The position numbers were made by a program, and so were the translations under genes. From NCBI GenBank assembly GCA_947474995.1, contig CANJNJ010000042.1, positions 1 through 37,433 on the forward strand: DNA of 37,433 nucleotides, written 5' to 3'. The DNA comes from Opitutaceae bacterium (lineage in GTDB: Bacteria > Verrucomicrobiota > Verrucomicrobiia > Opitutales > Opitutaceae). Under the pieces are notes generated by a model that was not told where the DNA came from, ran no database searches, and worked only from the letters and a program-made list of their open reading frames with translations. This document shows, one piece after another, positions 3,663 to 35,418 of this stretch (position 1 is the stretch's first letter; each line of letters opens with the position of its first letter).

Positions 3663-5060
3663 CTACCTGGGCTTAACGCCTGGTCGCTTCTTCAGCCACT
3701 TCCGAAACTCCCCGCCCCGCCAGGCCGGGAGCGTGCGCTTTTCCTCCCATGCGTGCAGCGCCGGGATCGGCAGCAAACTCCGCGGCAGATAATCCATCGC
3801 CTTACCGCCAAACAACGCCGCGCGCCACGCCATCGGTTGCGACGCCAGCAACGCCCAGGCGCCCATCGGCGGCGTGCCGGGCGCCGCGACACCTTCCTCC
3901 TTGGCGCGATGGCGCAGCCGCAGGAGCAAGTCGGGAATGGGAATATTGACCGGGCACACCTCGTGGCACGCCCCGCACAGGCTCGACGCCTTGGGCAGGT
4001 CCGCTTTTTCCGCAAATCGGCTTCCCATCAGGATCGGCGAAAGCACCGCGCCCACCGGCCCCGGATAGACACTGCGATACGCGTGACCGCTCGCCTGGCG
4101 GTAAACCGGACACACGTTCAAGCACGCGCCGCAACGAATGCAGCGCAGGATTTCACGGCAATCGCTCGCGAGCACCTCCGTCCGGCCATTATCGACAAAG
4201 ATCACGTGCATCTCTTCCGGGCCGTCCGGTTGCTCGGAAGATTTCGGACCACTGATGAACTCGGTGTAGACGGTAAGATCCTGCGCCGTCCCGGAACGGC
4301 CGAGGAGATTGATGAGCAGCGCGAGGTCGGAATCGCGGGGCACGATTTTTTCGATGCCGATCAGGGCGATGTGGCATTTCGTCGCCGCCAGGCAGAAGCG
4401 CGAGTTGCCCTCGTTGGTCACGAGCACCATCCGGCCGCTCTCGGCGGAAATGAAATTGGCGCCCGTCAGCCCGACGTCGGCCTGCAGATATTTCTGCCGG
4501 AGAAAATGGCGGGCCCGCGTCGTGATGACCTGGGGATCGTCGTCGTAAGCCCCGAGACCCTCGCGTTCGAAACTTTGCGCGATTTCCCGGCGGTTCTTGT
4601 GGATGATCGGCCGGACGATGTGACTCGGATGGTCATGATCGATTTGGACGATGAATTCGCCGAGATCGGTCTCGAGCGCCTCGATGCCGTGCCGCCCAAG
4701 AAAATCCGCGAGCTCGATCTCCTCGCTCACCATCGTCTTGGCCTTGACCATCTTCGTGGCCTTTCGCGCCCGCATGATGCCCAGCACGGTTTCGCACGCC
4801 ACTTCCGCCGTCGAAGCCCAGTGCACCTGCACGCCATTCGCCTGCAGCTTTTTCTCCACCGCCGGCAGGTAGGCGTCGAGATTCTCGATCGCATGCTGCT
4901 TGATCTCACCCGCCCGCTGACGCAGTCGGTTCGGATCGGCGAACTGCTCGAACAAAAGCTTGGTCCGCTTTTCGTGCGTGGCCTTCGTGCTTTGGTAAAC
5001 CGACGCGCGCTTGTCCGCCGGCAGCGCCGTCGCAAACAGGTCGAGGGGTTGAAAACGCAT
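3663..5060 (-). CDS. lutB: Lactate utilization iron-sulfur protein LutB
   Basis: Cytoplasmic iron-sulfur subunit of the LutABC complex, which oxidises L-lactate to pyruvate. The 465-residue protein aligns from memory with Bacillus LutB over its whole length: the 'K.MV.EEI' and 'E.DLGE.I.QI' region, 'LTGANF..AESG...LVTNEGN', and the 'DGPEEMHV.FVDNGR' stretch. Two cluster-binding groups are visible: Cys307, 310, 313 and 317 (CIRCGACLNVCPVY) and Cys362, 365 and 369 (CGACHEVCP). The ATG at 5060 (MRFQPLDLF) is chosen over an upstream GTG at 5114, which would overlap the lutA stop. It is the second gene of a lutA-lutB unit with a 53-base gap. No lutC follows; the next gene is convergent. The function is well supported; whether the complex works without a local lutC is open. 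Confidence 0.93.
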   Translation of the reverse strand: MRFQPLDLFATALPADKRASVYQSTKATHEKRTKLLFEQFADPNRLRQRAGEIKQHAIENLDAYLPAVEKKLQANGVQVHWASTAEVACETVLGIMRARKATKMVKAKTMVSEEIELADFLGRHGIEALETDLGEFIVQIDHDHPSHIVRPIIHKNRREIAQSFEREGLGAYDDDPQVITTRARHFLRQKYLQADVGLTGANFISAESGRMVLVTNEGNSRFCLAATKCHIALIGIEKIVPRDSDLALLINLLGRSGTAQDLTVYTEFISGPKSSEQPDGPEEMHVIFVDNGRTEVLASDCREILRCIRCGACLNVCPVYRQASGHAYRSVYPGPVGAVLSPILMGSRFAEKADLPKASSLCGACHEVCPVNIPIPDLLLRLRHRAKEEGVAAPGTPPMGAWALLASQPMAWRAALFGGKAMDYLPRSLLPIPALHAWEEKRTLPAWRGGEFRKWLKKRPGVKPR

Positions 5061-5113
5061 GGGGGAGAGGCTTAGCGAATAGGAAAGGTCGAAGGTTCGG
5101 CTTGGTCTACTCA

Positions 5114-5887
5114 CTACCCGCTACTCGCTCCTTTGTAGTTCAACGCGTCCCGCAACACCTGGGCCACGTGCAGCGTGCGGACCGGCTTGCCCTCCTTGGC
5201 CGCCAACCCGCCCAGGTGCATCAGGCAGCTCATGTCCGCGGAAACCAGCACGTCCGGCGAAACCGCACGGATGTGTTCGAGTTTCAGTTCACCCATCGCC
5301 GCCGAGACGTGGGGAAACGCGACCGAAAACGTGCCGCCAAAACCGCAGCACTGCTCGCCCTCGCCGAAAGGCAGAATCCGCGTGCCGGCAATCGACGTGA
5401 GCAGCGCAAGCGCCGCCTCGCCGCTCATCGTGCCCCGCGAGTGACACGAGCAGTGAAACGCCACCGTCGCCTCATAGCGGCCCGGCCAGGTCTTCACCCC
5501 GAGCCCATTGACGATGAAATCCGCGAGCTCCCACGTGCGCCGACCCAGTTGCCCGACTTCGTCGCGGTCCCTTTCCTTTTCGAACTCCAGCGGCGCCCCG
5601 TGGAACAGCATCGCGGCGCACGAACCGCTGGGCACGATCACCGGATCCTCACCCGCAAACGTGCGCACGGTGTGTCGAACGACCTTGCGCGACGCGTCCC
5701 AGTCCCCGCCATTGAAGGCCGGTTGACCACAGCAGGTTTGGGCCTCGGAAAAACCGACCTCGAGCCCGAGGTGCTCCAGCACCTCGACGGTCGCCACTGC
5801 CACGTCGTCGTAGAAAGCATCGCACAGACAGGTCGCCATGAGCTGTACGCGTTTGCCAGTAATGGGGTTTCGCTCGGGTTTTGTCAT
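5114..5887 (-). CDS. lutA: Lactate utilization protein LutA (CCG-domain)
   Basis: Subunit of the L-lactate oxidation complex, built of two cysteine-rich CCG domains like those in heterodisulfide reductase and glycolate oxidase GlcF. In this 257-residue protein the two CCG motifs are at residues 52-54 (CCGQPAFN) and 180-182 (CCGFGGTFS), with 'PSGSCAAM' near 86 and 'HCSCH' near 145, as in Bacillus LutA. The C-terminus 'TLHVAQVL' also matches. Start ATG at 5887 is preferred; a second ATG 16 codons in (MATCLCDAF) is possible because LutA families begin close to the TCL motif. It is transcribed away from rhaB across 66 bases and followed by lutB, which suggests joint expression with rhamnose genes, since rhamnose breakdown yields lactate. 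Confidence 0.93.
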   Translation of the reverse strand: MTKPERNPITGKRVQLMATCLCDAFYDDVAVATVEVLEHLGLEVGFSEAQTCCGQPAFNGGDWDASRKVVRHTVRTFAGEDPVIVPSGSCAAMLFHGAPLEFEKERDRDEVGQLGRRTWELADFIVNGLGVKTWPGRYEATVAFHCSCHSRGTMSGEAALALLTSIAGTRILPFGEGEQCCGFGGTFSVAFPHVSAAMGELKLEHIRAVSPDVLVSADMSCLMHLGGLAAKEGKPVRTLHVAQVLRDALNYKGASSG

Positions 5888-5953: not shown

Positions 5954-7417
5954 ATGCCTTTCGCCATGCCTGTCCCTGTTCACACTGCTGCGGTCGATCT
6001 CGGAGCCACCAGTGGCCGCGTCATTCTCGGCACGTGGGCCAAAAACAAGCTGAACCTCCGCGAGGTCCACCGCTTCCCCAACTCTTTCCATACTTTGGGC
6101 GGGCACGACTACTGGGACCTCGGCACGCTCTGGCATGAGGTGCAAACCGGCCTGCGGCACGCCGCGGCCGCCCTGCCCCGCGGCGCCAAGCTCGCGTCCG
6201 TCGGCGTCGATACCTGGGGCGTCGACTACGCGCTGGTCAACGATGCCGGCCGCCTGGTTTTTCCCGTCCACGCCTACCGCGATGCCCGCACGCAACCCGG
6301 CCTCACGCGGCTGGGCAACACGCGCGCGGCACTCGACCGCATTTACGCGGCCACAGGGATCCCCAATGTTTTCTACAACTCGTCGCTCCAGCTCGCCGAG
6401 GTGGTCGCCACCGCTCCCGCCATCGGGGATCTGGCGACGCGCTGCCTGTTTTTGCCGGACTATTTCAATTTCCTGCTCTCGGGCCGGATGGCCAACGAGC
6501 TGACCATCGCGAGCACAACGCAACTGCTCGACGTGCACTCGACCCAGTGGTCGCGCGCCGCGCTCGCTTACTTCCGGATTCCGGCCCAATGGCTGACCCC
6601 GCCCGTGCTCTCCGGCACGCGGCTGGGCCGCCTCAGCCCCGCCACGCGCACGAGCCTGGCCGCCCCGGCCTTCGCCGAGACCCAGGTCATTGCCGTGCCG
6701 GGCCACGACACCGCCTGTGCCTACGATGCCATGCCCGCCTCACCCGACGGGGGAGATCTCTATATTTCCTCGGGGACCTGGTCGCTCGTGGGATTCGAGA
6801 GTGACACGCCCGTGCTCGGAGCCGACGCGCTGGCCGCCCGGATTTCCAATGAACGCATCGGCGATGGCCGCTATCGTCCGCTGACCAACGTCATCGGCCT
6901 GTGGATGCTCGAAGGCACGCTGAAGGACTTCGCCTCGCGCCCCGCCCACGATCGCGAGTGGGCGGCATTGATCACGGCGGCGGAAAAATTGCCGCCACCG
7001 CCGGCCCGGATCGACCTGACCTTTGCGGCGTTTGCCAATCCGCCCTCGATGCGCGGGGCCATCGACGCCCAGCTGAAACGGCGAAAACTCCCCTTGCCCA
7101 AGAATCTCGCCGGCTACGTTCGCCTGATTTGTGATTCGCTCGGCGAAGGCCATGCCCTCGCGATGCGGAATTTCGAGCGGATGGCGGGCAAAAAATTTCA
7201 CCGGGTCCTGATCGTGGGTGGCGGTTCGAAAAACCGTTTGCTCTGCCAGGCCACGGCCAATGCCACCGGATTGCCCGTGGTGTCGTTTGCGCTCGAAGGC
7301 ACGGCGGTCGGCAACCTGGCCAGCCAGCTCATCGCCCTCCGCGCAGTAAAGGATCTCGCCACCTTCCGCCGGTATCTCGGCGCGGGATTGCAGCAAACGG
7401 TGTATTCTCCAAAGTAG
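5954..7417 (+). CDS. rhaB: L-rhamnulokinase
   Basis: FGGY-family sugar kinase that phosphorylates L-rhamnulose to L-rhamnulose-1-phosphate. The product is 487 residues, matching the usual length of about 490. Visible motifs are the N-terminal phosphate-binding loop 'AVDLGATSGRV' (residues 13-23), the substrate segment 'GVDTWGVDYAL' near residue 90, 'GHDTA' around the catalytic Asp near residue 250, 'SSGTWSL' and the C-terminal 'VGGGSKN' adenosine motif. ATG 5954 is chosen because it leaves about ten residues before the first strand; ATG 5966 is equally possible. The product feeds RhaEW, encoded at 10256-12448. The stop codon sits in AAGTAGCGC, a nine-mer repeated at two other stops in the window. 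Confidence 0.93.
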   Translation: MPFAMPVPVHTAAVDLGATSGRVILGTWAKNKLNLREVHRFPNSFHTLGGHDYWDLGTLWHEVQTGLRHAAAALPRGAKLASVGVDTWGVDYALVNDAGRLVFPVHAYRDARTQPGLTRLGNTRAALDRIYAATGIPNVFYNSSLQLAEVVATAPAIGDLATRCLFLPDYFNFLLSGRMANELTIASTTQLLDVHSTQWSRAALAYFRIPAQWLTPPVLSGTRLGRLSPATRTSLAAPAFAETQVIAVPGHDTACAYDAMPASPDGGDLYISSGTWSLVGFESDTPVLGADALAARISNERIGDGRYRPLTNVIGLWMLEGTLKDFASRPAHDREWAALITAAEKLPPPPARIDLTFAAFANPPSMRGAIDAQLKRRKLPLPKNLAGYVRLICDSLGEGHALAMRNFERMAGKKFHRVLIVGGGSKNRLLCQATANATGLPVVSFALEGTAVGNLASQLIALRAVKDLATFRRYLGAGLQQTVYSPK

Positions 7418-7431: not shown

Positions 7432-7457
7432 GTAGCGCGGGTCTCTGACCCGCGTCC
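7432..7457 (+). repeat. REP element, family B copy 1
   Basis: GTAG foot followed by a GC-rich hairpin, GCGGGTCTCTGACCCGC. The same element lies in opposite orientation at 8144-8167 with one mismatch, bracketing the transposase gene. It starts 15 bases after the rhaB stop. Confidence 0.85.
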
Positions 7458-7498
7458 GGGGGGATGGCAGACCCGAGAATTGGGGTAAATAGACAGAT

Positions 7499-7523
7499 GA
7501 CGCCGGTCGGAGACCGTCGCTAC
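7499..7523 (-). repeat. REP element, family B copy 2 (degenerate)
   Basis: Inverted relative to copy 1: GCCGGTCGGAGACCGTCGC then CTAC. The stem is weaker than in the other two copies. With copy 1 it forms a head-to-head pair just before the transposase start. Confidence 0.75.
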
Positions 7524-7532
7524 CTCAATCGC

Positions 7533-8129
7533 ATGCGCCTCGTAGCGACCGTCAGTTTCTCCCGCCGAAATCTGCCACATTGGGAAGTGGCAAACGGACG
7601 CTACTTCGTAACGGTACGTTGCGCGGGAAGTCTGCCGCGCGCAGTTTTCAAGCAACTCACAGAAATACAAAGCGCGCTTCGAAGCGCAGACGCACGCTCG
7701 GTGCAATATGCGAGGTGGCAACGGCGCCACTTCATGACCCTCGAAAAATATCTCGATGCTCATCACGGCAACTGCACTTTGCTCCAGGTGCCGGCCGCTC
7801 GAATCTTGGTGGACGAACTCGGGGCCTTGTCAGAGTGGAATGTCGCGGTGCCACACTACACCGTGCTCCCAAACCATTGGCACGCCATGATTGTCCCGGG
7901 AGCAGGGTGCAAATACTCGCTCGCCACGATCATGAAGCGGATTAAAGGCCGCAGCGCCCACACCATCCGCAATGAACTGGGTGGACGTGGGGCGGTTTGG
8001 CAGAGCGAATGGTTCGACCGATGGATGCGCAACGACACGGAGTGGGAAAAATGTGTAGACTATATTCGCAACAATCCCGTCAAATCCGGTTTGGTGCGCA
8101 CTTGGGCCGAGCACCCCTGGACACGGTAA
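7533..8129 (+). CDS. REP-associated tyrosine transposase (RAYT)
   Basis: Y1-type HUH nuclease of about 198 residues, thought to nick at REP hairpins. The N-terminal 'RRNLPHWEVANGRYFVTVR' segment is typical of the family. The metal-binding HUH motif is H115-W116-H117 in 'LPNHWHAMIV', and the likely nucleophilic tyrosine is in 'YIRNNPVKSGL' near the C-terminus. 'MKRIKGRSAHTIRNE' and 'VWQSEWFDRWMRN' also fit RAYTs. The ATG at 7533 lies ten bases after REP copy 2. The frame opens upstream to 7464, but those extra residues would be encoded by the REP and are probably not translated. The gene seems intact, so it could act in trans on the other GTAG-footed repeats here. Confidence 0.88.
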   Translation: MRLVATVSFSRRNLPHWEVANGRYFVTVRCAGSLPRAVFKQLTEIQSALRSADARSVQYARWQRRHFMTLEKYLDAHHGNCTLLQVPAARILVDELGALSEWNVAVPHYTVLPNHWHAMIVPGAGCKYSLATIMKRIKGRSAHTIRNELGGRGAVWQSEWFDRWMRNDTEWEKCVDYIRNNPVKSGLVRTWAEHPWTR

Positions 8130-8143
8130 TCGCACCAATCCAA

Positions 8144-8167
8144 ACGCGGGTCGGAGACCCGCGCTAC
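8144..8167 (-). repeat. REP element, family B copy 3
   Basis: ACGCGGGTCGGAGACCCGCG followed by CTAC, the inverted counterpart of the copy at 7432 with one mismatch. It lies in the 59-base convergent gap between the transposase and the M13 peptidase gene. Confidence 0.85.
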
Positions 8168-8188: not shown

Positions 8189-10198
8189 CTACCAAATCTC
8201 GACGCGCTCAGCAGCCGCCCGGCGCATCGGCGCGCCCTCCGGCACGTCGAAGGCGTGCGCAAACTCCTCCAGGTTCGAAAGCGGACCGTTCACCCGCCAC
8301 TCCGTCGGCGCATGCGGATCCGTCTGCACCAGCATCCGCTGTGTCTCCGGCCGGAACACCGTCCGCCAGGCCGTAGCGTAGCTGAGAAAAAAGCGCTGGG
8401 CCACGGTAAAGCCGTCAACTTTTTCCGGCACCGGTTTTTCCCGCAGAACCCGCTGCAACGCCGCAAAGGCAATCTTCAATCCCCCCAGGTCGGCGAGGTT
8501 CTCGCCCTGCGTGAGTTCGCCGTTCACGTGTAAATCGTCGAGCACCGGGTACCCATTGAACTGCGTCACGATCCCGGCGGCGCGCTCCTTGAACCGGGCC
8601 GCGCTCGCCGGCGACCACCAGTCGACCAGGTTGCCCACCGCGTCGAACTGTCGGCCCGAATCATCGAAGCCATGCGTGATTTCGTGGCCGATGATGCTCC
8701 CGATGCTGCCGTAATTGGCCGCATCGCCCGCGGTCGGGCTGAAGAAGGGCGACTGCAGGATGCCCGCCGGAAAAACGATCTCGTTGAGCGGCGGGTTGTA
8801 GTAGGCATTGACGGTCGGTGGGCTGAAGCCCCACTCGCTCTTGTCCACCGGGTGACCGACCTTCGCCAGATCGCGCCGGACTTCGAACTCTTCCGCGCGC
8901 TGCACATTGAGCACGTAGGCGCCGCGGTCGATGACCAGCGGAGAGTAATCCCGCCACGTGTCGGGATACCCGATCTTCACCGTCAACGCGTTGAGTTTCT
9001 CCAGCGCCTTGGCCCGGGTCGGTTCATCCATCCACTCGAGTTTTTGCAGGCGCTCCCGCAACGCGCCCTGCAGATGGCCCACCAGTTCCAGCATCCGGGC
9101 CTTGGCCTCGGGCGGAAAATGCGCGGCCACGTAGAGTTGGCCGAGCGCTTCGCCCACGGAGCCGTCCACCCGTTGCAGCACGCGCTTCCAGCGGTCGCGC
9201 ATCTTTTCCTGGCCGGTCAGGGTCCGGCCATAGAAGGCGAAATTTTCTTCGACAAAAGCACGGCTCAGATAGGGCGCCGAGCCATGGAGGAGATTCCACC
9301 GCAGGTAGTCCCGCCACGCCGTTACCGGAGTCGCCTCCAGCTGCCGATCAAAGGCCGCGAAAAATTCCGGCTGGCCGACGTCAAGATCCCCAGGCTGGCT
9401 GAGATCGAGAGCGGTAAAATAGGCACGCCAGTCGAAATGCGGCGTCAGCTTCTGCAGTTCCGCCTCCGCCATTCGGTGGTAATTCGCCACGGGATCACGA
9501 AGGTCGACGTTCGTCTTCGAACCTTGGGCGAGCGCGGTCTCGAGTTGCATCACGGCCGTGGCCGCGGCGCGGGCCGCATCCGCCGCGTCACCGGCCAGGA
9601 CGAAGAGGCGGGCGATATGCGCGACGTAGTGTTCGCGGAGTTGCTGGGATTTGTCGTCGTCGCGGAAATAGTAATCGCGATCCGGCAGACCCAGCCCGCC
9701 CTGCCCTAATCCGGCAATCACCATCGCACTGTTCTTCGGATCGGGCTCCGAAGAAAAAAAGAATCCGGGCCGAATGCCGCGCCGGTGCAGCCGGACCAGC
9801 TCGGCCTGCACGTCGGCCGGCGACTTGAGCGCCGCCATCCGCTCAAGCGCGGCCCGCACAGGCGTAATCCCCGCGGCCTCAATGGCCGCCTCGTCCATGC
9901 CGCTCGCATAGAAATCGCCCACGAGCTTTTCGGCGGAGCCAGGGTTCCGGGCCGCCGCGGCGCGTTCGAGAATCGCGTGCAAGTTGGCGCGATTGCGTTC
10001 CTCGAGTTCGTCAAAGGGGCCCCACGAGGTCTTGTCCGCCGGGACGGTGTTGGTCTTGAACCAACCACCATTGGCAAAGCGATAGAAGTCCGTCTGCGGC
10101 TTGACGGCAGAATCGAAATTTTTCGGGTCAATCTGCCCACGAACCGCCCCGGCGCACAGCAACGCGGATGAAACCGCGGTCAAAATTGACAGACGCAT
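8189..10198 (-). CDS. M13 family zinc metallopeptidase (neprilysin/PepO-like), secreted
   Basis: Exported zinc endopeptidase of 669 residues, the usual length for bacterial M13 enzymes. Residues 1-21 are a signal peptide ending near VRG, and the mature protein begins 'QIDPKNFDSAVKP'. The long N-terminal lobe carries 'DFYRFANGGW'. The catalytic lobe has the substrate motif 'NAYYNPPLNEIVFPAG', the zinc site HEITH near residue 500 within 'IIGHEITHGFDDSGRQFD', the third ligand in 'GENLADLGGL', and 'WRVNGPLSN' near the end. All catalytic elements are present, so it should be active. It is probably periplasmic or outer-membrane associated and degrades peptides up to about 40 residues. It sits between rhaEW and the transposase on the same strand as rhaEW, with 57 bases and a hairpin between them, so it is probably a separate unit. 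Confidence 0.93.
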   Translation of the reverse strand: MRLSILTAVSSALLCAGAVRGQIDPKNFDSAVKPQTDFYRFANGGWFKTNTVPADKTSWGPFDELEERNRANLHAILERAAAARNPGSAEKLVGDFYASGMDEAAIEAAGITPVRAALERMAALKSPADVQAELVRLHRRGIRPGFFFSSEPDPKNSAMVIAGLGQGGLGLPDRDYYFRDDDKSQQLREHYVAHIARLFVLAGDAADAARAAATAVMQLETALAQGSKTNVDLRDPVANYHRMAEAELQKLTPHFDWRAYFTALDLSQPGDLDVGQPEFFAAFDRQLEATPVTAWRDYLRWNLLHGSAPYLSRAFVEENFAFYGRTLTGQEKMRDRWKRVLQRVDGSVGEALGQLYVAAHFPPEAKARMLELVGHLQGALRERLQKLEWMDEPTRAKALEKLNALTVKIGYPDTWRDYSPLVIDRGAYVLNVQRAEEFEVRRDLAKVGHPVDKSEWGFSPPTVNAYYNPPLNEIVFPAGILQSPFFSPTAGDAANYGSIGSIIGHEITHGFDDSGRQFDAVGNLVDWWSPASAARFKERAAGIVTQFNGYPVLDDLHVNGELTQGENLADLGGLKIAFAALQRVLREKPVPEKVDGFTVAQRFFLSYATAWRTVFRPETQRMLVQTDPHAPTEWRVNGPLSNLEEFAHAFDVPEGAPMRRAAAERVEIW

Positions 10199-10255: not shown

Positions 10256-12448
10256 CTACCGCAGAAACGCCTCGTGCAGGCCGCCGTCGACGGTGATGAC
10301 CTGCCCGGTCGTCTTGCTCAGACGCTGGCTCACGAGGAGGAAATACGCCTCGGCCTGGTCGGCGGGCGTGATCGGCGCCTTCGTCAGCGTCCGATCCGCA
10401 TAGAACTGAGCCAGCTTCTTGACCAGCGACTCGGTCGCCTCGTCCTCGGTGTAGGGAATGGTGTACTTCGCCAGCGAACCGATGACGCGGTCGCGGGGAA
10501 ACATCGCCGAACCCTGGACGACCGTCGCGGGCGCGACGCCGTTTACCCGCACCAGCGGCGCCAGCTCGATCGCGAGCTCGCGCACCAGATGATTGGCGGC
10601 GGCCTTCGACGTGTCGTAGGCGATCGAACCTTTCTTCGGCACCACGGCGTTGGCCGAGGTGGTGAGAACGAGTTGACCCTTGAGTCCCTGCTCCCGCCAT
10701 GTCGATGCGGCCTCGTCGCCGACGATGTAGCTCCCGGTCACGTTGACGCCAAAGGTGAACGCCCACTTGTCGTCGGGAATGTGCCCGGTCGTGTCGCTCG
10801 GCCAGAAGACGCCCGCCGTCACGCAAATGGAGTCGAAGCCACCGTAGGCCAGCGCGACCTGATTGAGCATCGCCCGCACGCTGGCCCGGTCCGTGATGTT
10901 GCAGGCCAGGCCGAGGGCCGGACCGCAGTTGGAAATTCCCGTGCCCGCCACCCCGATGCCGAGACCATGCTTATCCGTGATCTCTTTCGCCGTGGCCGCG
11001 GCCGTTTCGACCTTCATGTCGACGCACACGAGGTGCGCGCCTTCCTTCACCAGCCGATGCGCCGTTTCCTTGCCGATGCCGGAACCGGCGCCAATGACCA
11101 CGATGATCTGCCGCGCGAGTTCCTTCTCCGCCGGCATCCGCTTGAGCTTCGCTTCCTCGAGCAGCCAGTACTCGATGTCGAAGGCCTCCTGCTGCGGCAG
11201 GGCGATATATTTGTCGATCGCCTCGGCGCCGCGCATGACCTCGACCGCGCAGTTGTAGAACTCAGCCGTGACGCGCGACTCGGACTTGTCCTTGCCCCAC
11301 GCAATCATGCCCAAGCCCGGAATGAGGACGACCGTGGGATTCGGATCGCGCATCGCCGGCGAATTGGCGTGTTTGCACTTCGCGTAATACGCCGCGTAGT
11401 CCTGACGATAGGCGTCGAGCCCGGCCGTGAGTTTCTTTTTCAGCGTCGCGGCATCCTCGGCCTGCGGATTCCAGTCGACGTAGAGCGGCTTGATCTTGGT
11501 GCGCAGAAAATGATCCGGGCACGAGGTGCCGATCTCCGCCAGACGGGCGGCATCCTTCGAATTCACGAAGCGCAGGATTTTCGCGTCGTCCTGCACCGTG
11601 CCGATGAAGCGCTTTTCCTTCGACACCTGTCCGCGGAGCCAGGGCAGAATCCCCGCCAGCGTCGCGTGGCGCTTCGGCTCCTCGAGGGTCTGATATTTCT
11701 GGCCGCCAAAGGCCGTGGCATCGCCCCCCTTCGCGGCGTATTTCGACTCGATGTAGGCGGCCGCCTTTTCAATGCAGTCGAGCGTGTAGGTGTAGCACGC
11801 CTTGTCGTCGTCGGCCCACGAGATGAATCCGTGCTGGCCCATCATGATCGCGCGATTCTTCGGATTCTTCCGCTCGATGGCCTGCATCGCCAGTCCGAGC
11901 TCAAACCCGGGCCGCATCCAGGGCACATAGGCCATCGTGCCGCCAAAAATTTCCTGGGTGAGCTTCTCGCACTGCGCCGAGGCCGCGATCGCGATGATCG
12001 CGTTCGGATGCATGTGATCGACGTGCTTCCCGGTCAGAAACGAGTGGAGCGGCGTGTCGATCGAGGACGCGCGGGGATTCAGGTTGAAGGTCGCGTGCGC
12101 CTGCATGCCGACCATGTCGTCTTCGGCCTGCGACTTCAGGCCCTTGTCCGCGCGGCTCCCGTAAAGCTGCTGCATCTCGAGCAGCTTCTGCTGGTACAAG
12201 GACGAAAAATTTTCGCGGTTGCTCGTGCGCAGATCGCCGCCCGAGCCCTTGACCCACAGCACCTCGACCGGTTGGCCGGTGAGCGGATCCTGGGCTGGGA
12301 TTTTCGACGACGTGTTGCCTCCGCCGGTATTGGTCACGCGCTGGTCGCAGCCGAGCAGATTGGACCGGTACACGAGGCGGCCCACGGGATCCAAGGCCGC
12401 GGCCTTGGCGTCGTCCCAGAGATGATTCACGAATTTATAGGAAGGCAT
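10256..12448 (-). CDS. rhaEW: Bifunctional rhamnulose-1-phosphate aldolase / lactaldehyde dehydrogenase
   Basis: Fused enzyme of 730 residues. The N-terminal class II aldolase (about 1-440) splits L-rhamnulose-1-phosphate into DHAP and L-lactaldehyde. The C-terminal short-chain dehydrogenase (about 450-730) is expected to oxidise lactaldehyde to L-lactate with NAD. Aldolase motifs are 'NTGGGNTSSK' near 40, 'WVKGSGGD' near 65, the zinc ligands in 'DHMHPNAI' near 143, and 'GQHGF'. Dehydrogenase motifs are the nucleotide loop 'GAGSGIGKE' near 454 and the active-site 'YDTSKAAANH' (YxxxK) near 625. This architecture is known from Bacillus YuxG and from Bacteroidota and Verrucomicrobiota. Start ATG at 12448 matches the family N-terminus. 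The lactate it makes is the substrate of LutAB nearby. Confidence 0.93.
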   Translation of the reverse strand: MPSYKFVNHLWDDAKAAALDPVGRLVYRSNLLGCDQRVTNTGGGNTSSKIPAQDPLTGQPVEVLWVKGSGGDLRTSNRENFSSLYQQKLLEMQQLYGSRADKGLKSQAEDDMVGMQAHATFNLNPRASSIDTPLHSFLTGKHVDHMHPNAIIAIAASAQCEKLTQEIFGGTMAYVPWMRPGFELGLAMQAIERKNPKNRAIMMGQHGFISWADDDKACYTYTLDCIEKAAAYIESKYAAKGGDATAFGGQKYQTLEEPKRHATLAGILPWLRGQVSKEKRFIGTVQDDAKILRFVNSKDAARLAEIGTSCPDHFLRTKIKPLYVDWNPQAEDAATLKKKLTAGLDAYRQDYAAYYAKCKHANSPAMRDPNPTVVLIPGLGMIAWGKDKSESRVTAEFYNCAVEVMRGAEAIDKYIALPQQEAFDIEYWLLEEAKLKRMPAEKELARQIIVVIGAGSGIGKETAHRLVKEGAHLVCVDMKVETAAATAKEITDKHGLGIGVAGTGISNCGPALGLACNITDRASVRAMLNQVALAYGGFDSICVTAGVFWPSDTTGHIPDDKWAFTFGVNVTGSYIVGDEAASTWREQGLKGQLVLTTSANAVVPKKGSIAYDTSKAAANHLVRELAIELAPLVRVNGVAPATVVQGSAMFPRDRVIGSLAKYTIPYTEDEATESLVKKLAQFYADRTLTKAPITPADQAEAYFLLVSQRLSKTTGQVITVDGGLHEAFLR

Positions 12449-13404: not shown

Positions 13405-13432
13405 GGTGGAGCGGGCAGCGCTCCGCCTCTAC
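13405..13432 (-). repeat. REP-like hairpin with GTAG foot at the panC stop
   Basis: On the minus strand it reads GTAG followed by AGGCGGAGCGCTGCCCGCTCC, a hairpin with GCGGAGCG / CGCTCC arms. The TAG of the GTAG foot is the panC stop codon (13429-13431). Confidence 0.65.
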
Positions 13433-14384: not shown

Positions 14385-15608
14385 ATGATCCGCATCAACG
14401 AAAACTACACCAAGCTCAAGGCGTCCTACCTTTTCAGCGACATCGCCAAGCGCGTCAGCGCCTATGTCGCGGCGAATCCCTCCAAGCCGGTCATCCGCCT
14501 CGGCATTGGTGACGTCACCGAGCCGCTCCCGCCGGTGTGCATCGAGGCCCTCCATGCCGCGACCGACGAGATGGCGAAGCGGGCCACATTCAAGGGCTAC
14601 GGCCCGGAACAGGGCTATGCGTTCCTCCGCGAGGCCATTGCCCAGCATGACTACACCGCCCGCGGCTGCCAGATCGACGCGGACGAAATCTTCGTCTCCG
14701 ACGGCGCGAAGTGCGACTGCGGCAACATCCAGGAAATCTTCGCCCCCGACACCCGGCTCGCGATTCCCGATCCGGTCTACCCGGTCTACATCGACACCAA
14801 CGTCATGGCCGGCCGCACCGGTCCCAACGTCGACGGCCGCTACCAGGGCGTCACCTACCTCGATAGCACGCCGGCCAACGGCTACGTGCCGGCGATCCCC
14901 AGCGTCGCGACCGACCTGATCTATCTCTGCTTCCCCAACAACCCGACCGGCGCCGTCGCCACCAAGGCCCAACTCGCCGCCTGGATCGCCTACGCCAAGA
15001 AGCACAAGGCCGTCATCCTCTTCGACTCCGCCTACGAGTCCTACATCCGCGATCCGCAGATCCCCCACTCCATCTACGAAATCGAAGGCGCGCGCGACGT
15101 GGCGCTCGAGTTCCGCAGCTTCTCGAAGACCGCCGGCTTCACCGGGACGCGCTGCGCCTACCTGGTCGTGCCGAAGACGGTCGTCGCCTACGATGCCGCC
15201 GGCAACGCGCATCCCCTGCACGCGCTCTGGAATCGCCGCCACAGCACGAAGTTCAACGGCGTGGCGTACCCGATCCAAAAGGCCGCCGCCGCGATCTTCA
15301 CGCCCGAAGGCCAAAAGCAGACCCGCGCCCTCACCGATTTCTATCTCGGCAACGCCAAGCTCATCCGCGACGCGGTGGCGAAGTGGGGTTTCACGTGCAT
15401 CGGGGGCGACAACGCGCCCTACATCTGGGTCAACACCGGTCGCGACTCCTGGGAATTTTTTGATCTGCTCCTGAACAAGGCCCAGGTGGTCTGCACGCCC
15501 GGCGCCGGTTTCGGCAAGTGCGGCGAAGGCCACGTGCGGATCAGTGCGTTCAACTCGCGCGAAAACGTCGAGACCGCCCTGGCGCGCATCGGCGCGGCGC
15601 TGAAGTAG
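14385..15608 (+). CDS. dapL: LL-diaminopimelate aminotransferase
   Basis: PLP enzyme that converts tetrahydrodipicolinate directly to LL-diaminopimelate using glutamate, the short route to lysine and peptidoglycan found in Chlamydiae, Verrucomicrobia, plants and others. The 407-residue length is standard. The N-terminal 'INENY.KLK.SYLF' and '[13 protein letters not shown]' are diagnostic. '[15 protein letters not shown]', 'FPNNPTGA' and 'FDSAYESYI' follow, and the PLP lysine is K248 in '[12 protein letters not shown]'. '[18 protein letters not shown]' closes the active site. The start matches the family exactly. The stop lies in AAGTAGCGC, as in rhaB and the M16 gene. Transcription is divergent from the panC-like gene, with no other lysine genes in view. 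Confidence 0.96.
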
Positions 15609-15683
15609 CGCAGGGCGCGGCCCAAAAACTGGGAGGCCGAGCTCTGACGACGCCTACTCCAGATCCAAACCATCAATCCCTTG

Positions 15684-15752: not shown

Positions 15753-15854
15753 AAAAACACCGGGCCTGGTTGGACGATAAGCGGCCGAAACAAGAGTCCA
15801 AATCCTTAGCCCGCCTCCGGCCCTCTGAAATTCTGAAATTTCCATCCTCCGCGG

Positions 15855-16028: not shown

Positions 16029-16643
16029 CTACTTCTTCGCCACGCCGCCGGCGATGTCGCCCGCGAGTCCCGTCACCGCCCGACTGAGCTCCGCGGCGAG
16101 GGAGCCTTCGCTCTTGCCGTCCCAGTGCAGGCCAGCCGCCACGTAGTCGCCATGGGCCGCGATCGCCGGCTTCGCACCGGTCGTCGCCAACTCCCAGGCA
16201 GCATGAAAAAGCACCGACTGGTTCGCGCCGCCCTCGCACGCCAGTACGCGCACCGTCAGTTCGTAGTCAAAGGGCACCGTCGCCGAGCGCAGGCCGGGCG
16301 CGAGCACCGCGCTGGCCACGCCCCGGGCCAGCAGTTCTTCGCGCAGGACCCGGGCCACGCCGAGTTCCAGCGCCTCGCCCCAGCGGGCATATTCGCGGAA
16401 TTCGATTTCGTTGTCCCCCCGGCGCACAATCAGGGGCCGGGCCTTCAGGTAACTCGCCACCTCGATTTGGTTGAGATGAATCGCGACTCCGCCGGCGACG
16501 GGTTGGGTCGCCGCGGTCGCGGCCGAGAGCAGGTAAAACCGGGTCGGATCCGGCTGGGCGGACGGCAGCGAACAACCGGCCACCGCCAAAAAACTGGCGA
16601 CACCTGTCAGGAACAGAACCAGGGATTTCACGCGCGGCTTCAT
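16029..16643 (-). CDS. ABC-type transport auxiliary lipoprotein (PqiC-like)
   Basis: Outer-membrane lipoprotein of 204 residues that probably partners the MCE protein encoded upstream. The signal peptide (1-23) ends in a lipobox with Cys24 (LAVAGC). The next segment 'PDPTRFYLL' and the later 'QIEVASYLKARPLIVRRG.NEIEF.EYARWGE' are hallmarks of the ABC_trans_aux (DUF330/PqiC/YmbA) family. The C-terminal part ends 'ELSRAVTGLAGDIAGGV', as in relatives that alternate strands and a terminal helix. It is the last gene of the mlaE-mlaF-mlaD unit, after a 184-base gap that holds a REP pair. It ends with GTAG. Confidence 0.85.
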   Translation of the reverse strand: MKPRVKSLVLFLTGVASFLAVAGCSLPSAQPDPTRFYLLSAATAATQPVAGGVAIHLNQIEVASYLKARPLIVRRGDNEIEFREYARWGEALELGVARVLREELLARGVASAVLAPGLRSATVPFDYELTVRVLACEGGANQSVLFHAAWELATTGAKPAIAAHGDYVAAGLHWDGKSEGSLAAELSRAVTGLAGDIAGGVAKK

Positions 16644-20641: not shown

Positions 20642-20702
20642 GTAGTCCCGCCTTTAGGCGGAGGGATTGGCTGACTCGGATTCCGCCTTAAGGCGGAACG
20701 AC
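20642..20702. repeat. REP-like palindrome, family A copy 3
   Basis: GTAGTCCCGCCTTTAGGCGG and its inverted partner ending in CGAC, the same 61-base architecture as at 2339, 3553 and 26521. It lies between the HAD and symporter genes, the remainder of this 197-base gap being featureless. Confidence 0.87.
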
Positions 20703-27487: not shown

Positions 27488-27676
27488 CGCGCGGCCCTGG
27501 AACGTAAGATCAAGCCCAACGATCGGCCGCGCACGGAGTGCACGGCCCACCTTTCACGATCTTCGTACCGGGTGGGCCGGGCGCTCCGCCGCGCGGCCTT
27601 GGAACGTAAGTTCAAGCCCAACGATCGGCCGCGCACGGAGCGCACGGCCCACCTTTGACGATCTTCGTATCAGGTG
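27488..27676. repeat. 102-base tandem duplication of family C repeat
   Basis: A unit starting CGCGCGGCC.TGGAACGTAAG repeats at an offset of exactly 102 bases (27488 and 27590), with few mismatches; the second copy is cut short near 27676. Each unit contains GGCCGCGCACGGAG and CCCACCTTT.ACGATCTTCG, related to the family C palindrome at 25877. The rest of the 376-base gap (27427-27802) holds nothing else I recognise. Confidence 0.8.
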
Positions 27677-27802
27677 GCCGGCGGCCACCATCAGCGAAGT
27701 CGGTGATTAAAACCTGCCTTGATTCACCGCAAACGGCTTGGCGCGCTCGCGACTTCTCGCATGCTGCGGCCCAGTCAAGTGTCCCTAACCTTGTTGACCG
27801 CC

Positions 27803-30640
27803 ATGAAGAATCTGCTCCCGCGTATTTCTCCCCTGCTCCTCGCCGCCGCGCTGTCCCTGCTCGCCCCTTTGCGCGCCCTCCGCGCCGCCGACGCCCCCGA
27901 CGGTTTCACCTTCATCCGCACCGCTGGCGGCATCGCTGAATACACCCTTCGCGCCAACGACCTGAACGTCCTGCTCCTCGAGGATCACTCGGCTCCGGTC
28001 CTCACGCTGATGGTGACCTACCGCGTCGGCTCGCGCAACGAGGTCACCGGCACCACCGGGGCCACGCACCTGCTCGAGCACCTGATGTTCAAAGGCAGCA
28101 AAAATTTCCATCCCGGCATCGGCAAGGGCTTCGACACCATGCTGGACCGGGTCGGCGGCATCAACAACGCCACGACCTGGCTCGATCGTACCAATTACTT
28201 CGAGAATTTCCCCAGCGATCACCTCGAACTGGCCGTCCAACTCGAAGCCGATCGGATGCGCGGACTGTTGCTCCTCGAGTCGGACCGCCAGCCCGAAATG
28301 ACCGTCGTGCGCAACGAATTCGAGCGGAACGAAAACGATCCCGGCTCCGCGCTCGAAAAGGAGATGAACGCCGCGGCGTTCATGGCCCATCCCTATCACC
28401 ACCCGACGATCGGCTGGCGCTCCGACATCGAGAAGGTCTCGATCGAAAAACTCCGCGAGTTCTACGACACGTTCTACTGGCCGAACAACGCGACGATCAC
28501 GGTCATCGGCGATTTCAAGCCGGCGACCGCCCTCCAGCTGATTCGCCAGAATTTCGGCGCCATCACCCGCTCGCCAAAACCCATTCCGCAGCTCTACACC
28601 GAGGAGCCCGCGCAGACGGGCCCGCGCCGCGTCACGGTCAAGCGCCCCGGGGAGGTCGGCGTGGTCCAAATCGCCTACAAGGTGCCGCCCGCCCTTCACC
28701 CCGACCACGCACCGCTCGAAGTACTCGCCGCCATTTTCAGCGAAGGCAAAACGAGCCGACTCTATCGCGCACTCATCAATACCAATCTCGCGATCGGCGC
28801 CGACGCCTCCAAGGGCTTCTTTCACGACCACACGCTTTTCACCTTCACCGCCGAACTCGCCCCCACCATCACCCACGATCAGGTGGAGAAGACCCTGCTG
28901 GCGGAAATTGCGAAAGTGACGAAGGACGGCGTCGAGCCGGCCGAGGTCACCCGCGCCATCAACAAGATGCTGGCCGCACTCGCCTTCGGGCGCGACGGCT
29001 CGTTCGCCATCGCCGGCCAAATCAACGAATCCATCGCCGTCGGTGACTGGACGAATTACCTGACGATGCTGGATCAAATCAAGAAGGTCACTGTCGCCGA
29101 CGTGCAGCGCGTCGCCCGCGCTTATTTCCTGGAGGACCAAAGCACCGCCGGCTGGTTCATTCCCCAGACCGAGGGTCCGGCGGGCGCGACGCCCGCGGCG
29201 CCCAACGCGCGGAGCGAAGCGCCGCGCCGCTCTCCCGTGGTCGCTAGTGGGCCCCACTACTACCGCGACCCCGAGGCCGAAACCCGCCTTACACCTTACA
29301 CCTCCAACCTTACCCGCGCCGCTGCGCTCCCCGCCGCCGCCTCGCCGACGTCCGCCGCAGGCGCCGCGGGCCCGGCGCTCATTGCCCCGAACATCCACCG
29401 GCGCCAGCTCGCCGGTCTCGATGTCCTCACGTTGCACACGTCGATGAAAGACGTCGTCACGCTCCGCGGCGTGCTGGGCGCGGGGGATGCCTACAACTCG
29501 TCCGCAAACTCCGCCATCGCCGACCTGGTGGCCGGCATGCTCGACAAGGGAACGGTGAAGCACGAAAAGTTCGCGCTCGCCGAACTGCTCGAGGCCGCCG
29601 GCGCGACGCTCAACTTCAGCTCGGGTTCGCACACGTTGAACTTCAGCGGGAAGTGCCTGCGCAAGGACGTGTCTCTCGTGCTCGGCCTGCTCGGCGAACA
29701 GCTCCGGACGCCGCGCTTCGACGCCGAGGAATTTGCGAAGCTTAAGAAACAGCTCGTCGGCCGTCACAAGCGCCAGATGGAGGAGACGGACTTCCGCGCC
29801 GAGGGCGCCTTTGCCCGGGCAATTTACCCAGCGGGGCATCCGAATCGTTCGCCCGCCGACGAAAAATATCTCGCCGACATCGAGGCCGCGACGCTCGACC
29901 AACTGAAGGCGTTTCACGCGGCGAACTACGGCCCGGCCGCCTTCCGCCTCGTGGCCGTCGGGGACGTCGATGACACCGCGATTGACGCCGCGTTGGTCGA
30001 CACCTTTACCGGCTGGCAGGGCGGCCGCGCGATCCCCGCCGCCGCCAAGGCTCCCGCCCTCGCGGCCGCGCAAACGGAAAAAGTGGCGATGCCCGGCAAG
30101 ACCAGCGTTTCGTTCGTCATCGGCCAGCCCTCGGGCCTGCGCTATAACGATCCCGACTACCAGGCGTTCCACCTGGCGACGGCGGTCCTGGGCAGTGGTT
30201 TCTTCTCCGCGCGACTGCTCGACATCATCCGCAACCACGAAGGACTCACCTATGGCATCGGGGCGTCGCTGCATTCCGACACCTATGCGGATGGCGCCTG
30301 GTCCATCAGCGCCACGTTCGCCCCCGAGCTGCTCGAAAAGGGGACGGCCTCGACGGTGCGCGAACTGCGCCGGTTCTATAACGAGGGTCTGACCGCGGAC
30401 GAACTGGCCAACTTCAAGGTCACACTCGCCGGCACTTACAAGGTGGCGCTCGCCACGACCGGCGGGCTCGCCGGCACGATCCTCAACGCCGTCCAGCGCG
30501 GCTACGGCCCCGAGTGGGTCGACGAATATCCCCGGCGCCTGCAAGCCCTCACCCTCGCCGAGGTCAACGGGACGATCAAAAAATATCTCCACCCCGACAA
30601 TATGGTCACCGTCCTGGCTGGCACGCTGCCGGCAAAGTAG
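27803..30640 (+). CDS. Two-domain M16 family zinc peptidase, secreted
   Basis: Periplasmic insulinase/pitrilysin-type peptidase of 945 residues. Residues 1-29 are a signal peptide (LRALRAAD). The N-terminal M16 domain carries the inverted zinc motif H89-x-x-E92-H93 (HLLEHLMFKG) with the distal glutamate near E172 in 'VVRNEFERNENDP', and 'RTNYFENFPSDHLE' nearby. The C-terminal M16 domain (about 540-945) lacks the zinc motif, as is normal for the non-catalytic half, and shows 'GLTYGIGASLHSD'. The linker (about 471-535) is Ala/Pro-rich and contains a seven-base tandem repeat. ATG 27803 is chosen for the signal peptide. The stop codon is the TAG of a REP-like GTAG foot. Confidence 0.92.
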   Translation: MKNLLPRISPLLLAAALSLLAPLRALRAADAPDGFTFIRTAGGIAEYTLRANDLNVLLLEDHSAPVLTLMVTYRVGSRNEVTGTTGATHLLEHLMFKGSKNFHPGIGKGFDTMLDRVGGINNATTWLDRTNYFENFPSDHLELAVQLEADRMRGLLLLESDRQPEMTVVRNEFERNENDPGSALEKEMNAAAFMAHPYHHPTIGWRSDIEKVSIEKLREFYDTFYWPNNATITVIGDFKPATALQLIRQNFGAITRSPKPIPQLYTEEPAQTGPRRVTVKRPGEVGVVQIAYKVPPALHPDHAPLEVLAAIFSEGKTSRLYRALINTNLAIGADASKGFFHDHTLFTFTAELAPTITHDQVEKTLLAEIAKVTKDGVEPAEVTRAINKMLAALAFGRDGSFAIAGQINESIAVGDWTNYLTMLDQIKKVTVADVQRVARAYFLEDQSTAGWFIPQTEGPAGATPAAPNARSEAPRRSPVVASGPHYYRDPEAETRLTPYTSNLTRAAALPAAASPTSAAGAAGPALIAPNIHRRQLAGLDVLTLHTSMKDVVTLRGVLGAGDAYNSSANSAIADLVAGMLDKGTVKHEKFALAELLEAAGATLNFSSGSHTLNFSGKCLRKDVSLVLGLLGEQLRTPRFDAEEFAKLKKQLVGRHKRQMEETDFRAEGAFARAIYPAGHPNRSPADEKYLADIEAATLDQLKAFHAANYGPAAFRLVAVGDVDDTAIDAALVDTFTGWQGGRAIPAAAKAPALAAAQTEKVAMPGKTSVSFVIGQPSGLRYNDPDYQAFHLATAVLGSGFFSARLLDIIRNHEGLTYGIGASLHSDTYADGAWSISATFAPELLEKGTASTVRELRRFYNEGLTADELANFKVTLAGTYKVALATTGGLAGTILNAVQRGYGPEWVDEYPRRLQALTLAEVNGTIKKYLHPDNMVTVLAGTLPAK
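29287..29314. repeat. Seven-base tandem repeat inside the M16 peptidase gene (4 units)
   Basis: CCTTACA, CCTTACA, CCTCCAA, CCTTACC: four units of seven bases, encoding part of the linker between the two peptidase domains. It is closely related to the repeat inside recD2. Confidence 0.8.
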
Positions 30641-30662
30641 CGCCGCTCTCTGACCGGCGTCC
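30637..30662 (+). repeat. REP element related to family B, at the M16 stop codon
   Basis: GTAGCGCCGCTCTCTGACCG, very like the family B copy at 7432 (GTAGCGCGGGTCTCTGACC). The TAG stop of the peptidase is part of its GTAG foot. Confidence 0.65.
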
Positions 30663-31300: not shown

Positions 31301-31639
31301 GTGAATCTCCCGCTGCAACTTGCCGACGTCGATCTCGCCCCGCTCTGGAAGGCGCTCGCCCCGTGGTGGAAGCAGTTCCAAGTGCTCTTCCGCGAGCATC
31401 TCTTTCTGACGCCTTTGTGCGGGATGCTGATCGTGATGATGACGCTCAGCTTCTATCGGTTTCTCCGGAGCATCAACCCGGCCCTCGTCGGTTTCGTGAT
31501 GCTCCTGATACTCGGAATTCTGCTTCTCCACTGGACGGTGACACGCACTGAGCCGGCGTTCCTGAAACCTTGCATCGATTGGCTCGCGCCCTTCTTCCCG
31601 ACCGGAGATTTCGCCCCGCTGCCCAAGCCCAAGCGTTAG
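31301..31639 (+). CDS. Small two-helix membrane protein of unknown function
   Basis: Product of about 112 residues, not recognised as any family. An amphipathic start ('LPLQLADVDLAPLWKALAPWW') leads to two hydrophobic segments, about residues 38-55 ('PLCGMLIVMMTLSFYRFL') and 62-82 ('ALVGFVMLLILGILLLHWTV'), followed by a soluble tail ending 'PLPKPKR'. This looks like a real inner-membrane protein rather than a chance frame, because helix composition and codon use are coherent. The GTG at 31301 is the proposed start; a TTG at 31262 is possible. It stands alone between a repeat mosaic and the convergent M20 gene. Confidence 0.6.
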   Translation: MNLPLQLADVDLAPLWKALAPWWKQFQVLFREHLFLTPLCGMLIVMMTLSFYRFLRSINPALVGFVMLLILGILLLHWTVTRTEPAFLKPCIDWLAPFFPTGDFAPLPKPKR

Positions 31640-33276: not shown

Positions 33277-33282
33277 TTGTTC

Positions 33283-35418
33283 CTACGCCCGCGCGATGTT
33301 CTCCGGCGTCAGCGGCAGCTTCCGCACACGCTTGCCCGTCGCCGCAAACACCGCGTTCGCCACCGCCGGACCGACCAGCGCCGTCGCCGGCTCGCCGATG
33401 CCACCCGGCTTCTCCGTGCTGGCCACCAGCACGACGTCGATCGGCGGCGTCTCGTGCAGTCGCAGCACCGGATAATCGTGGAAGTTCGTCTGCTCCACCC
33501 GGCCGTTCTTCAGCGTGATTTGATCGTGCAGTGTCGCCGACAGCCCGAAGACCACGCTCGAGTGAATCTGCGCCTCGACCGTATCGGGGTTCACCATCCG
33601 GCCCAGGTCCGCCACCACCACAATCCGGTGGACCTTGATCAGGTTTTTCTCGACCGAGATTTCCGCGACCTGCGCCATGTAGGTGTCGTAGCCTTCCATC
33701 AGCGCGATGCCGCGGGACCGGCCTGCCGGCGGCGCGCTGCCCCAGCCCGCTTTCTCCGCGGCCAGCTTCAGCACGTTCGCAAACCGCGGCTGCGACCCGA
33801 GCAGCGACAGCCGATACGCATACGGATCCTGTTTCGCCACCGCCGCCAGTTCGTCGATGAAGCTCTCGTTCGCGAACGCGTTCAGCGCGTGGCTCACCGA
33901 GCGCCAGTAGCCGACGCGCAAACCGGTGTCGTGAATCACGAGATCGTGGGTCGCGTTTGGAATCGCGTACGGCGCGACCGCCGCCTCCGCCATAAAGGGA
34001 TCGAGCGTGTCCTTCGCCAGCCCGAACGCGCGCTGCGTCACCGACTGCGACGTCAACTGGAACGTCAGCGCCGTCGGCTTGTTGTCCGCGCCGAGCGCCG
34101 CCGCCATCCGGTGCAACGCCATCGGCCGATAGTAGTCGTGCCCCATGTCGTCCTCGCGCGTCCACAGCAGCTTCACCGGCTTGCCCACGGCGCGGGAAAT
34201 CTGCGCCGCCTGTACGATGAAATCCAACTCGAGCCGGCGGCCGAACCCGCCACCGAGAAACGTCGTCTTGAGCGTGATGTCCTCGGGCTTGATCCCGAGC
34301 GCCGCAGCGACCGCGCCTTGCGCGCCCTGCTGGAATTGCGTGGGCCCGATCAACAGGCACTTCCCGCCGCGGAAATCGGCCGTGAAATTCATCGGCTCCA
34401 TCGTCGCGTGCGCCAGGTAGGGCAACTCGTACTCCGCCTTCACGGTTTTCGTCGCGCCCGCCAGCACGGCGGCGGCATCGCCGGTTTTCTTGATGCTGAT
34501 GACCTTCGCCGTCGCGGCGGCCGCGTGGATGCCCGCCATCATTGACGCGGTGTCGAGTTTCGCCCCGGGACCTTCGTCCCATTGGATGGACAAAACTTCC
34601 CGCGCCTTCCGCGCCTGCCAGTAACTCGATGCCACGACGGCCACGCCGTCGCTGATCTCCACGACGTCGATCACACCCGGCATCGCCTGGGCCTTCGCCG
34701 CGTTGAAACTCTTCACCTTGCCGCCGATCACCGGGCACTGCTCGAGCGAGGCGAAGACCATGCCCGGCAATTTCACATCGATGCCGTACTCCGCGGTGCC
34801 GTTGACCTTCGACGGCGTGTCCAGGCGATGAACGGGCTTCCCGACGATCCGAAAATCCTTCGGGTCCTTCAGCACGACGTCCTTCGGCACCGGCAGCTTG
34901 GCCGCGGCCTCCGCGAGGTGGCCGTAGGTCGCCTTCCGCCCACCGGGGCCGAAGACCTCGCCGTTTTCCGCGCGGCATTGCGAGGCGTCGACCTTCCATT
35001 CGTTCGCCGCCGCCGTCACCAGCATCGTCCGGACCTGCGCGCCGCCGATTCGCAGCTTTTCCCAGCCGTCGCGCACGGAGGTCGAGCCGCCGGTGATCTG
35101 CGCCCCGAGGAGCGCATTGGTGTACACGGGATCGGGTGGAGCGATGACGACTTTGATTTTCGCCAGATCGATATTCAGTTCCTCGGCGATCAGCATCGGC
35201 ATCGAGGTGTACACGCCCTGGCCCATCTCGGAGCGGGCGGAGATGAGCGTGACCGTATTGTCATCGGCAATGTGCACCCAGGCATTCGGCGTGTGCACGG
35301 TGCCCGCGACCAGCGTCTTTTCGACGGCCTTGATTAGCTCGGGCACATGGAAGCCGAGGACGAGGCCGCCGCCGGCGACGGTGGTGTTGATGAGAAATTC
35401 GCGACGGGAAAGTTTCAT
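33283..35418 (-). CDS. iorB: Molybdopterin-binding hydroxylase large subunit (IorB/isoquinoline 1-oxidoreductase beta-like)
   Basis: Large subunit of a xanthine-oxidase family molybdenum hydroxylase, 711 residues. A twin-arginine export signal is at residues 4-9 (SRREFL) with a hydrophobic stretch behind it, so the folded cofactor-loaded complex is probably sent to the periplasm. 'SEMGQGVYTSMPMLIAEEL' (about 62-80), 'FLGGGFGRRLELD' near 400 and the C-terminal 'GGIGEPATALVGPAVANA', with the catalytic Glu676, match the IorB group that fuses both molybdopterin domains in one chain. The true substrate is unknown; the group oxidises N-heterocycles and aldehydes. It follows iorA by ten bases and has a GAGGA ribosome binding site. 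There is no FAD subunit nearby, as expected for this group. Confidence 0.9.
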   Translation of the reverse strand: MKLSRREFLINTTVAGGGLVLGFHVPELIKAVEKTLVAGTVHTPNAWVHIADDNTVTLISARSEMGQGVYTSMPMLIAEELNIDLAKIKVVIAPPDPVYTNALLGAQITGGSTSVRDGWEKLRIGGAQVRTMLVTAAANEWKVDASQCRAENGEVFGPGGRKATYGHLAEAAAKLPVPKDVVLKDPKDFRIVGKPVHRLDTPSKVNGTAEYGIDVKLPGMVFASLEQCPVIGGKVKSFNAAKAQAMPGVIDVVEISDGVAVVASSYWQARKAREVLSIQWDEGPGAKLDTASMMAGIHAAAATAKVISIKKTGDAAAVLAGATKTVKAEYELPYLAHATMEPMNFTADFRGGKCLLIGPTQFQQGAQGAVAAALGIKPEDITLKTTFLGGGFGRRLELDFIVQAAQISRAVGKPVKLLWTREDDMGHDYYRPMALHRMAAALGADNKPTALTFQLTSQSVTQRAFGLAKDTLDPFMAEAAVAPYAIPNATHDLVIHDTGLRVGYWRSVSHALNAFANESFIDELAAVAKQDPYAYRLSLLGSQPRFANVLKLAAEKAGWGSAPPAGRSRGIALMEGYDTYMAQVAEISVEKNLIKVHRIVVVADLGRMVNPDTVEAQIHSSVVFGLSATLHDQITLKNGRVEQTNFHDYPVLRLHETPPIDVVLVASTEKPGGIGEPATALVGPAVANAVFAATGKRVRKLPLTPENIARA

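Follow-up and report, generated by a model that had tools for sequence, protein, structure and literature searches.

Why do nearly all TAG stop codons of a single bacterial contig follow a G? The contig CANJNJ010000042.1 of an Opitutaceae bacterium (assembly GCA_947474995.1), analysed over its whole length of 37,433 nt and called the window here, is one of 261 contigs of a 5.24-Mb genome. A preliminary description of its sequence had noted that its TAG stops lie almost always within GTAG, the tetranucleotide at the foot of repetitive extragenic palindromes (REPs), and had suggested that REPs insert or are selected at stop codons or that old REPs leave GTAG behind as the stop. Our data suggest two separate things being superimposed, a reading to which we assign a probability of roughly 0.7: the GTAG pattern of the window would be mostly ordinary, and the REPs of one family, family B, would land at gene ends with the TAG of their foot serving as the stop codon.

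The genome sample used throughout combines the window with 60 other stretches of 20 kb each (L003-L062), picked regardless of REPs, i.e. 1.24 Mb with 860 genes of at least 80 amino acids and with the stop inside the stretch, called by an iterated codon model of our own. Repeated 12-mers revealed two major REP families, A (GTAGTTCCGCCTTCAGGCGGAA) and B (GTAGCGCCGGTC...). The family-B consensus GTAGCGCCGGTCTCCGACCGGCG, derived from 92 copies that had been chosen for matching it at up to three mismatches, is a short palindrome with GTAG as its 5′ foot. On both strands the pattern gave 185 matches at up to three mismatches compared to six for a reversed-pattern control, showing the presence of many dispersed copies. 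We analysed 92 unique copies having a GTAG foot and lying away from stretch ends, including all 48 exact ones, fetching the contexts of the listed copies and positioning each foot relative to stops on the same strand. The copies are mostly extragenic and close to gene 3′ ends, with four of the 92 lying wholly within called genes. The GTAG foot is exactly the stop of a gene in 36 of the 92 copies (39%) and in 16 of the 48 exact ones. Within the 61 unselected stretches, 11/27 family-B feet are stops compared to 112/848 other non-coding GTAGs (p = 0.0005). Besides the 36 feet at offset 0, three are found 4 nt, two 5 nt, two 6 nt and nine 10-18 nt past the stop, and one copy is at offset -13, where the gene runs into the hairpin in a different frame. 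The coincidence depends on orientation: among 30 family-B copies lacking a nearby same-strand stop and having a convergent gene in the stretch, one sits less than 35 nt downstream of the end of that gene (at 13 nt) and all others sit 35 nt or more downstream of it, in a listing restricted to overlaps of at most 10 nt, with one 13-nt overlap known. AA precedes the foot in 25/36 copies at stops, creating Lys AAG TAG, and in 23/56 others (p = 0.01), and the copies away from stops have A at -2 in 68% and at -1 in 57%; this preference could be part of the element or of the target. As separate observations, GTCG is the commoner foot variant among the one-mismatch family-B matches listed in this genome, and the REP loop read in another frame gives a TGA stop inside the hairpin in several relatives (e.g. 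L329, L337, L362 and L363) and once here, at the offset of -13.

This behaviour is not shared by the other main REP families of the genome. In the commoner family A, the foot is the stop in 2/75 copies of the 61 stretches (p = 4e-9 compared to family B), and these REPs mostly lie farther from the stop than those of family B; the family-A REP of the window (20642..20661, + strand; GTAGTCCCGCCTTTAGGCGG) lies with its foot, GTAG, 35 nt downstream of a TAA stop. Further families of perfect GTAG hairpins are found at stops in 0/14 (GTAGCCCGC), 0/9 (GTAGCCCTG) and 1/10 (GTAGGGACG) cases. The idea of REPs inserting or being selected at stops holds for one family.

The ends of orthologues bear on whether the repeat supplies the stop or is directed to an existing one. 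Using one joined query of C-terminal segments, we searched the relatives G004 and G005 for 29 of the 36 genes ending in a family-B foot. The 46 usable ends (at least 58% identity and reaching the C-terminus), belonging to 24 genes, comprise 25 TGA, 18 TAG and three TAA stops, five of the 46 being GTAG, and lie within one codon of our stop in 22 and within five codons in 37 cases. For six genes followed across the genus, a set overlapping with the former, 15 of 118 orthologue ends are GTAG. Compared to the background of 123 GTAG stops in 860 genes, orthologues of REP-ended genes are thus not enriched in GTAG, so that the stop seems to come with the repeat, as opposed to a GTAG already present being targeted; the power of this comparison is limited because the relatives are distant and stops turn over fast between them, and within that limit insertion at existing GTAG stops finds no support. 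Together, this suggests that family-B REPs land at the ends of genes and bring the stop with them while the position of the end is nearly kept.

The window encodes a candidate enzyme for this process. The gene of a putative REP-associated tyrosine transposase (RAYT; 7488..8126, + strand), an IS200-like Y1 transposase of 213 amino acids as read (Pfam PF01797, E 4e-7), has the residues H-W-H at positions 130-132, read from the DNA, and is flanked by inverted copies of one REP: exact family-B matches are located upstream (7432..7454, + strand), with the foot 18 nt past the rhaB stop, and downstream (8145..8167, - strand), and a further family-B REP with one mismatch lies at the 5′ end of the gene (7501..7523, - strand). 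We propose a model in which family-B REPs arrive at the end of a gene or directly beside it, their GTAG foot facing the gene, whereupon the TAG of the foot takes over from the old stop; the mover is probably the RAYT whose gene these REPs flank. Copies landing in other frames would be lost because the protein would be extended. A farther-reaching version, in which the RAYT-REP subfamily of this species, and more weakly that of the relative G017 (5/31 copies at stops), inserts preferentially at stops in one orientation, donating an in-frame stop often in the form of AAG TAG and making a mobile repeat reset the ends of genes throughout the genome, is in our view tentative and rather unlikely.

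Turning to the window pattern, the counts themselves were borne out by our gene calls: among 25 genes with a readable stop, ten of the eleven TAG stops follow G, as do six of the 14 TAA/TGA stops (TAA 5/7, TGA 1/7), about five having been reported before. A genome-wide or regional rule requiring a G in front of TAG stops would account for these ten, and the window is indeed unusual, with P = 0.003 for at least 10/11 (binomial, p = 113/241) and with 0.4% of 5000 shuffles of the stop labels among stretches containing any stretch equally extreme, both values ignoring that the pattern had been picked by an earlier reader. The genome sample makes such a rule highly improbable. In the 60 stretches outside the window, G precedes 113/241 TAG (47%), 75/186 TAA (40%) and 96/408 TGA stops (24%), and 46% of all 860 genes have G as the last base of their penultimate codon. 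The raw difference including the window, 123/252 for TAG vs 80/193 for TAA, has p = 0.13, falling to 112/241 vs 80/193 (p = 0.33) upon removal of genes with a called family-B foot as stop, and the stretches taken together show no significant heterogeneity (p = 0.29). The deviating stop is TGA, which is low in G, and TAG is not clearly high. The statement that TAG stops almost always lie in GTAG therefore fails genome-wide, the count that had been proposed as its decisive check placing G before TAG not clearly above either TAA or the penultimate-codon background. What the window shows would mostly result from ordinary properties: a GC-rich genome with many last codons ending in G, the scarcity of CTAG (observed/expected 0.36 in the sample compared to 1.58 for GTAG, with C preceding just 49 of 252 TAG stops), Lys AAG as a common last codon, the small number of eleven genes and a minority of GTAG stops being intact or decayed REP feet. 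The dapL gene shows one way in which the G arises, its last codon usually encoding Lys and its 79 orthologue ends including AAG TAA (21), AAG TAG (11) and AAG TGA (8). We rejected the C following TAG as a trace of REPs: it is present in about 42% of genes of the sample, compared to 21-23% after TGA and TAA, and is likewise found behind 52/129 TAG stops lacking the G, which means that REPs do not account for the C by itself.

Two other explanations concern the family-B copies at stops. RAYT-mediated insertion might target GTAG, stops being GTAG sites at which insertion is tolerated, in which case the GTAG stop would predate the hairpin on its 3′ side. GTAG stops make up 123 of the 875 non-coding GTAGs, so that some copies would end up at stops if insertion occurred at any GTAG where it is tolerated; moreover, for the M16 peptidase gene of the window (in both relatives) and a gene of stretch L048 (in G004), a relative without an intact REP has a GTAG stop. 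Such targeting nevertheless predicts 14% of family-B copies at stops while 39% are observed, it is at odds with orthologues ending in GTAG at the background rate, and the parts of PMC6006769 consulted here present the tetranucleotide on the 5′ side of the hairpin as an internal guide of the element and not as the target, all of which makes this order of events improbable. Selection could alternatively retain REP hairpins at the stop, a hairpin within about 15 nt stalling the ribosome or protecting the mRNA and the GTAG being incidental. REPs closer than 16 nt to the stop lower translation in Escherichia coli (stated in PMC12306157 with reference to earlier work), and next to the 36 feet coinciding with a stop, 16 of the family-B copies lie 4-18 nt past one. 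The hairpin reads almost identically in both directions, yet copies facing the opposite way show no pile-up at gene ends, and family A of the same genome mostly keeps a greater distance from the stop, leaving retention by selection a doubtful account of the coincidence.

Several points weigh against our preferred view, in which family-B REPs bring stops to the ends of genes and the background is otherwise ordinary. All gene ends rest on our own codon-model calls and not on annotation. The window stays a local outlier that is incompletely explained. The GTAG hairpin type GTAGGTTTT is found at stops in 3/3 perfect cases, so family B is not unique. The orthologues are 63-91% identical in protein and the state before insertion is unseen in them. 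The M16 gene ends with AAG TAG in both G004 and G005, continuing with CGCCGGG in G005, where the end is perhaps a decayed foot itself; as four relatives of the same genus end M16 with AAG TAG, single cases such as this one could be older. A contrast comes from G005, which has the same family-B core and shows 0/37 feet at stops (30 loci of 90 matches; p = 5e-7 compared to this genome). Related families are found at stops in 0/27 (G002) and 0/10 (G016) copies, next to the 5/31 of G017, and among 26 loci pooled from relatives, overlapping with these three, in 2/37; gene calling in the relatives relied on the codon model obtained from this genome, and in G002 just 9/27 copies had a called stop on the same strand between -60 and 200 nt. 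One strong RAYT copy is present here, relatives of 51-57% identity are found in G016, G017, G039 and G001, the match in G005 is weak, and the search in G002 gave no match. A RAYT and B-type copies occur together in G017, G016 and G001, whereas B-type copies are present in G005 despite the weak RAYT match and in G002 despite its absence. G039, with a 56% RAYT relative, has few B-type copies (7 matches). The results for G005 show that neither the REP core nor this RAYT alone predicts the supply of stops, a habit varying between species and unexplained by the core sequence. As an aside, many of the listed family-B copies of G005 have a GTGG foot instead of GTAG.

That TAG stops are provided by REP ends is already published: Di Nocera et al. 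(2013; PMC3733652) describe the GTAG termini of REPs as often providing the TAG stop to flanking open reading frames (ORFs) and the verrucomicrobium O. terrae as highly enriched in GTAG repeats. Family B shares with this GTAG superfamily the foot, the short palindrome, the high copy number and the location mainly downstream of genes. In the sections of that paper that we consulted we found no count per family, no histogram of offsets and no orthologue test of such stops; in our data, a single family of a single genome shows the effect strongly, and the species of the genus are not alike in it. The Y1-type transposase gene lying between inverted GTAG REPs and the GTAG guide tetranucleotide 5′ of the hairpin correspond to the RAYT/TnpA-REP systems as presented by Quentin et al. 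(2018; PMC6006769), whereas mobility and cleavage are putative for the RAYT of the window, and G005 differs in combining many family-B copies with a weak RAYT match. E. coli REPs within 15 nt of the stop, as cited in PMC12306157, likewise place a hairpin at or just past the stop; in our case, the REP itself contains the stop codon. The analysis tells a real pattern apart from one confined to a single window. Should the preference for gene ends be confirmed, family B would offer a natural system for RAYT site choice and for how often a mobile repeat sets a protein end, and the question can be tested through the contrast of REP families within one genome and of species having a core in common.

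Hairpins at stops give a mixed picture. A hairpin arm starts 0-3 nt past 22/123 GTAG stops, 8/128 other TAG stops (p = 0.006) and 39/605 TAA/TGA stops (p = 0.0001), and a hairpin starts within 30 nt of 52/123, 43/128 (p = 0.19) and 156/605 (p = 0.0004) of these, respectively. The suspected enrichment of hairpins at GTAG stops hence stands for abutting hairpins and, within 30 nt, compared to TAA/TGA, while within 30 nt it is not seen relative to other TAG stops. By reading, six of the 22 abutting hairpins belong to family B, two to family A and four to a GTTT...AAAC hairpin unrelated to both. A hairpin of the type AGGTTT...GC-GC...AAACCT starts inside the TAG stop of five genes, four being GTAG and one CTAG with an imperfect stem (L046:18650-19999 (-), L056:1632-2756 (+), L056:2873-4381 (-), L062:14505-15452 (-) and L055:14057-14890 (+)), and is perhaps a terminator or another repeat family overlapping stops.

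Decayed feet may explain some further GTAG stops, albeit a minority. CGC follows 15/112 GTAG stops without a called family-B copy, 4/129 other TAG stops (p = 0.004) and 21/608 TAA/TGA stops (p = 0.0001). Some of these GTAGCGC stops continue with CGCCGGTC or CGCGGGTC without a proper hairpin, several resembling broken family-B copies, and upon their removal, too, G precedes 97/226 TAG stops (43%). The suggestion that old REPs leave GTAG as the stop thus gains some support, limited to this minority. The 15 include the stops of rhaB and dapL, which are possible decayed family-B feet.

In the window, a recognisable repeated REP foot is found at one of the ten GTAG stops. A family-B REP with one mismatch to GTAGCGCSGGTCTNNGACCSGCG (30637..30659, + strand) provides with its TAG the stop of the M16 peptidase gene (27791-30640), and 18 similar places are present in the 1.24 Mb. 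At panC (13429..13432, - strand), the other gene for which a REP foot had been proposed, the abutting hairpin folds well (z = -2.3) and has no second copy at up to six mismatches in the 1.24 Mb, so we rejected it as a REP. The other eight stops gave no repeat match in the sample except for one weak match at the M13 peptidase gene (8189..8192, -). They belong, with domains assigned by Pfam and the names dapL, rhaEW and iorB taken over from the preliminary description, to lutB (3663..3666, -), followed by an unrepeated hairpin, a lutA-like gene with a CCG domain (5114..5117, -), a rhaB-like FGGY kinase (7414..7417, +), continuing with CGCG like a family-B foot, an aldolase II/short-chain dehydrogenase gene (rhaEW; 10256..10259, -), the aminotransferase gene dapL (15605..15608, +), in which the G derives from Lys AAG and CGC follows, a PqiC-like lipoprotein gene (ABC_trans_aux; 16029..16032, -) and an iorB-like molybdopterin-binding gene (33283..33286, -). 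The sole TAG stop without a preceding G is TTAG (CGT TAG; 31636..31639, +) of a 112-amino-acid ORF. The nearest named relatives of the dapL protein are from Opitutaceae or Opitutae metagenome-assembled genomes, with up to 92% identity. The gap following dapL (15600-16000) partly matches many places in the genome (56 matches including the query itself) and contains an inverted repeat around ATTTGTGCCCAT, and the gap upstream of the M16 gene harbours two direct 88-nt copies (27488-27677), 93% alike and 102 nt apart.

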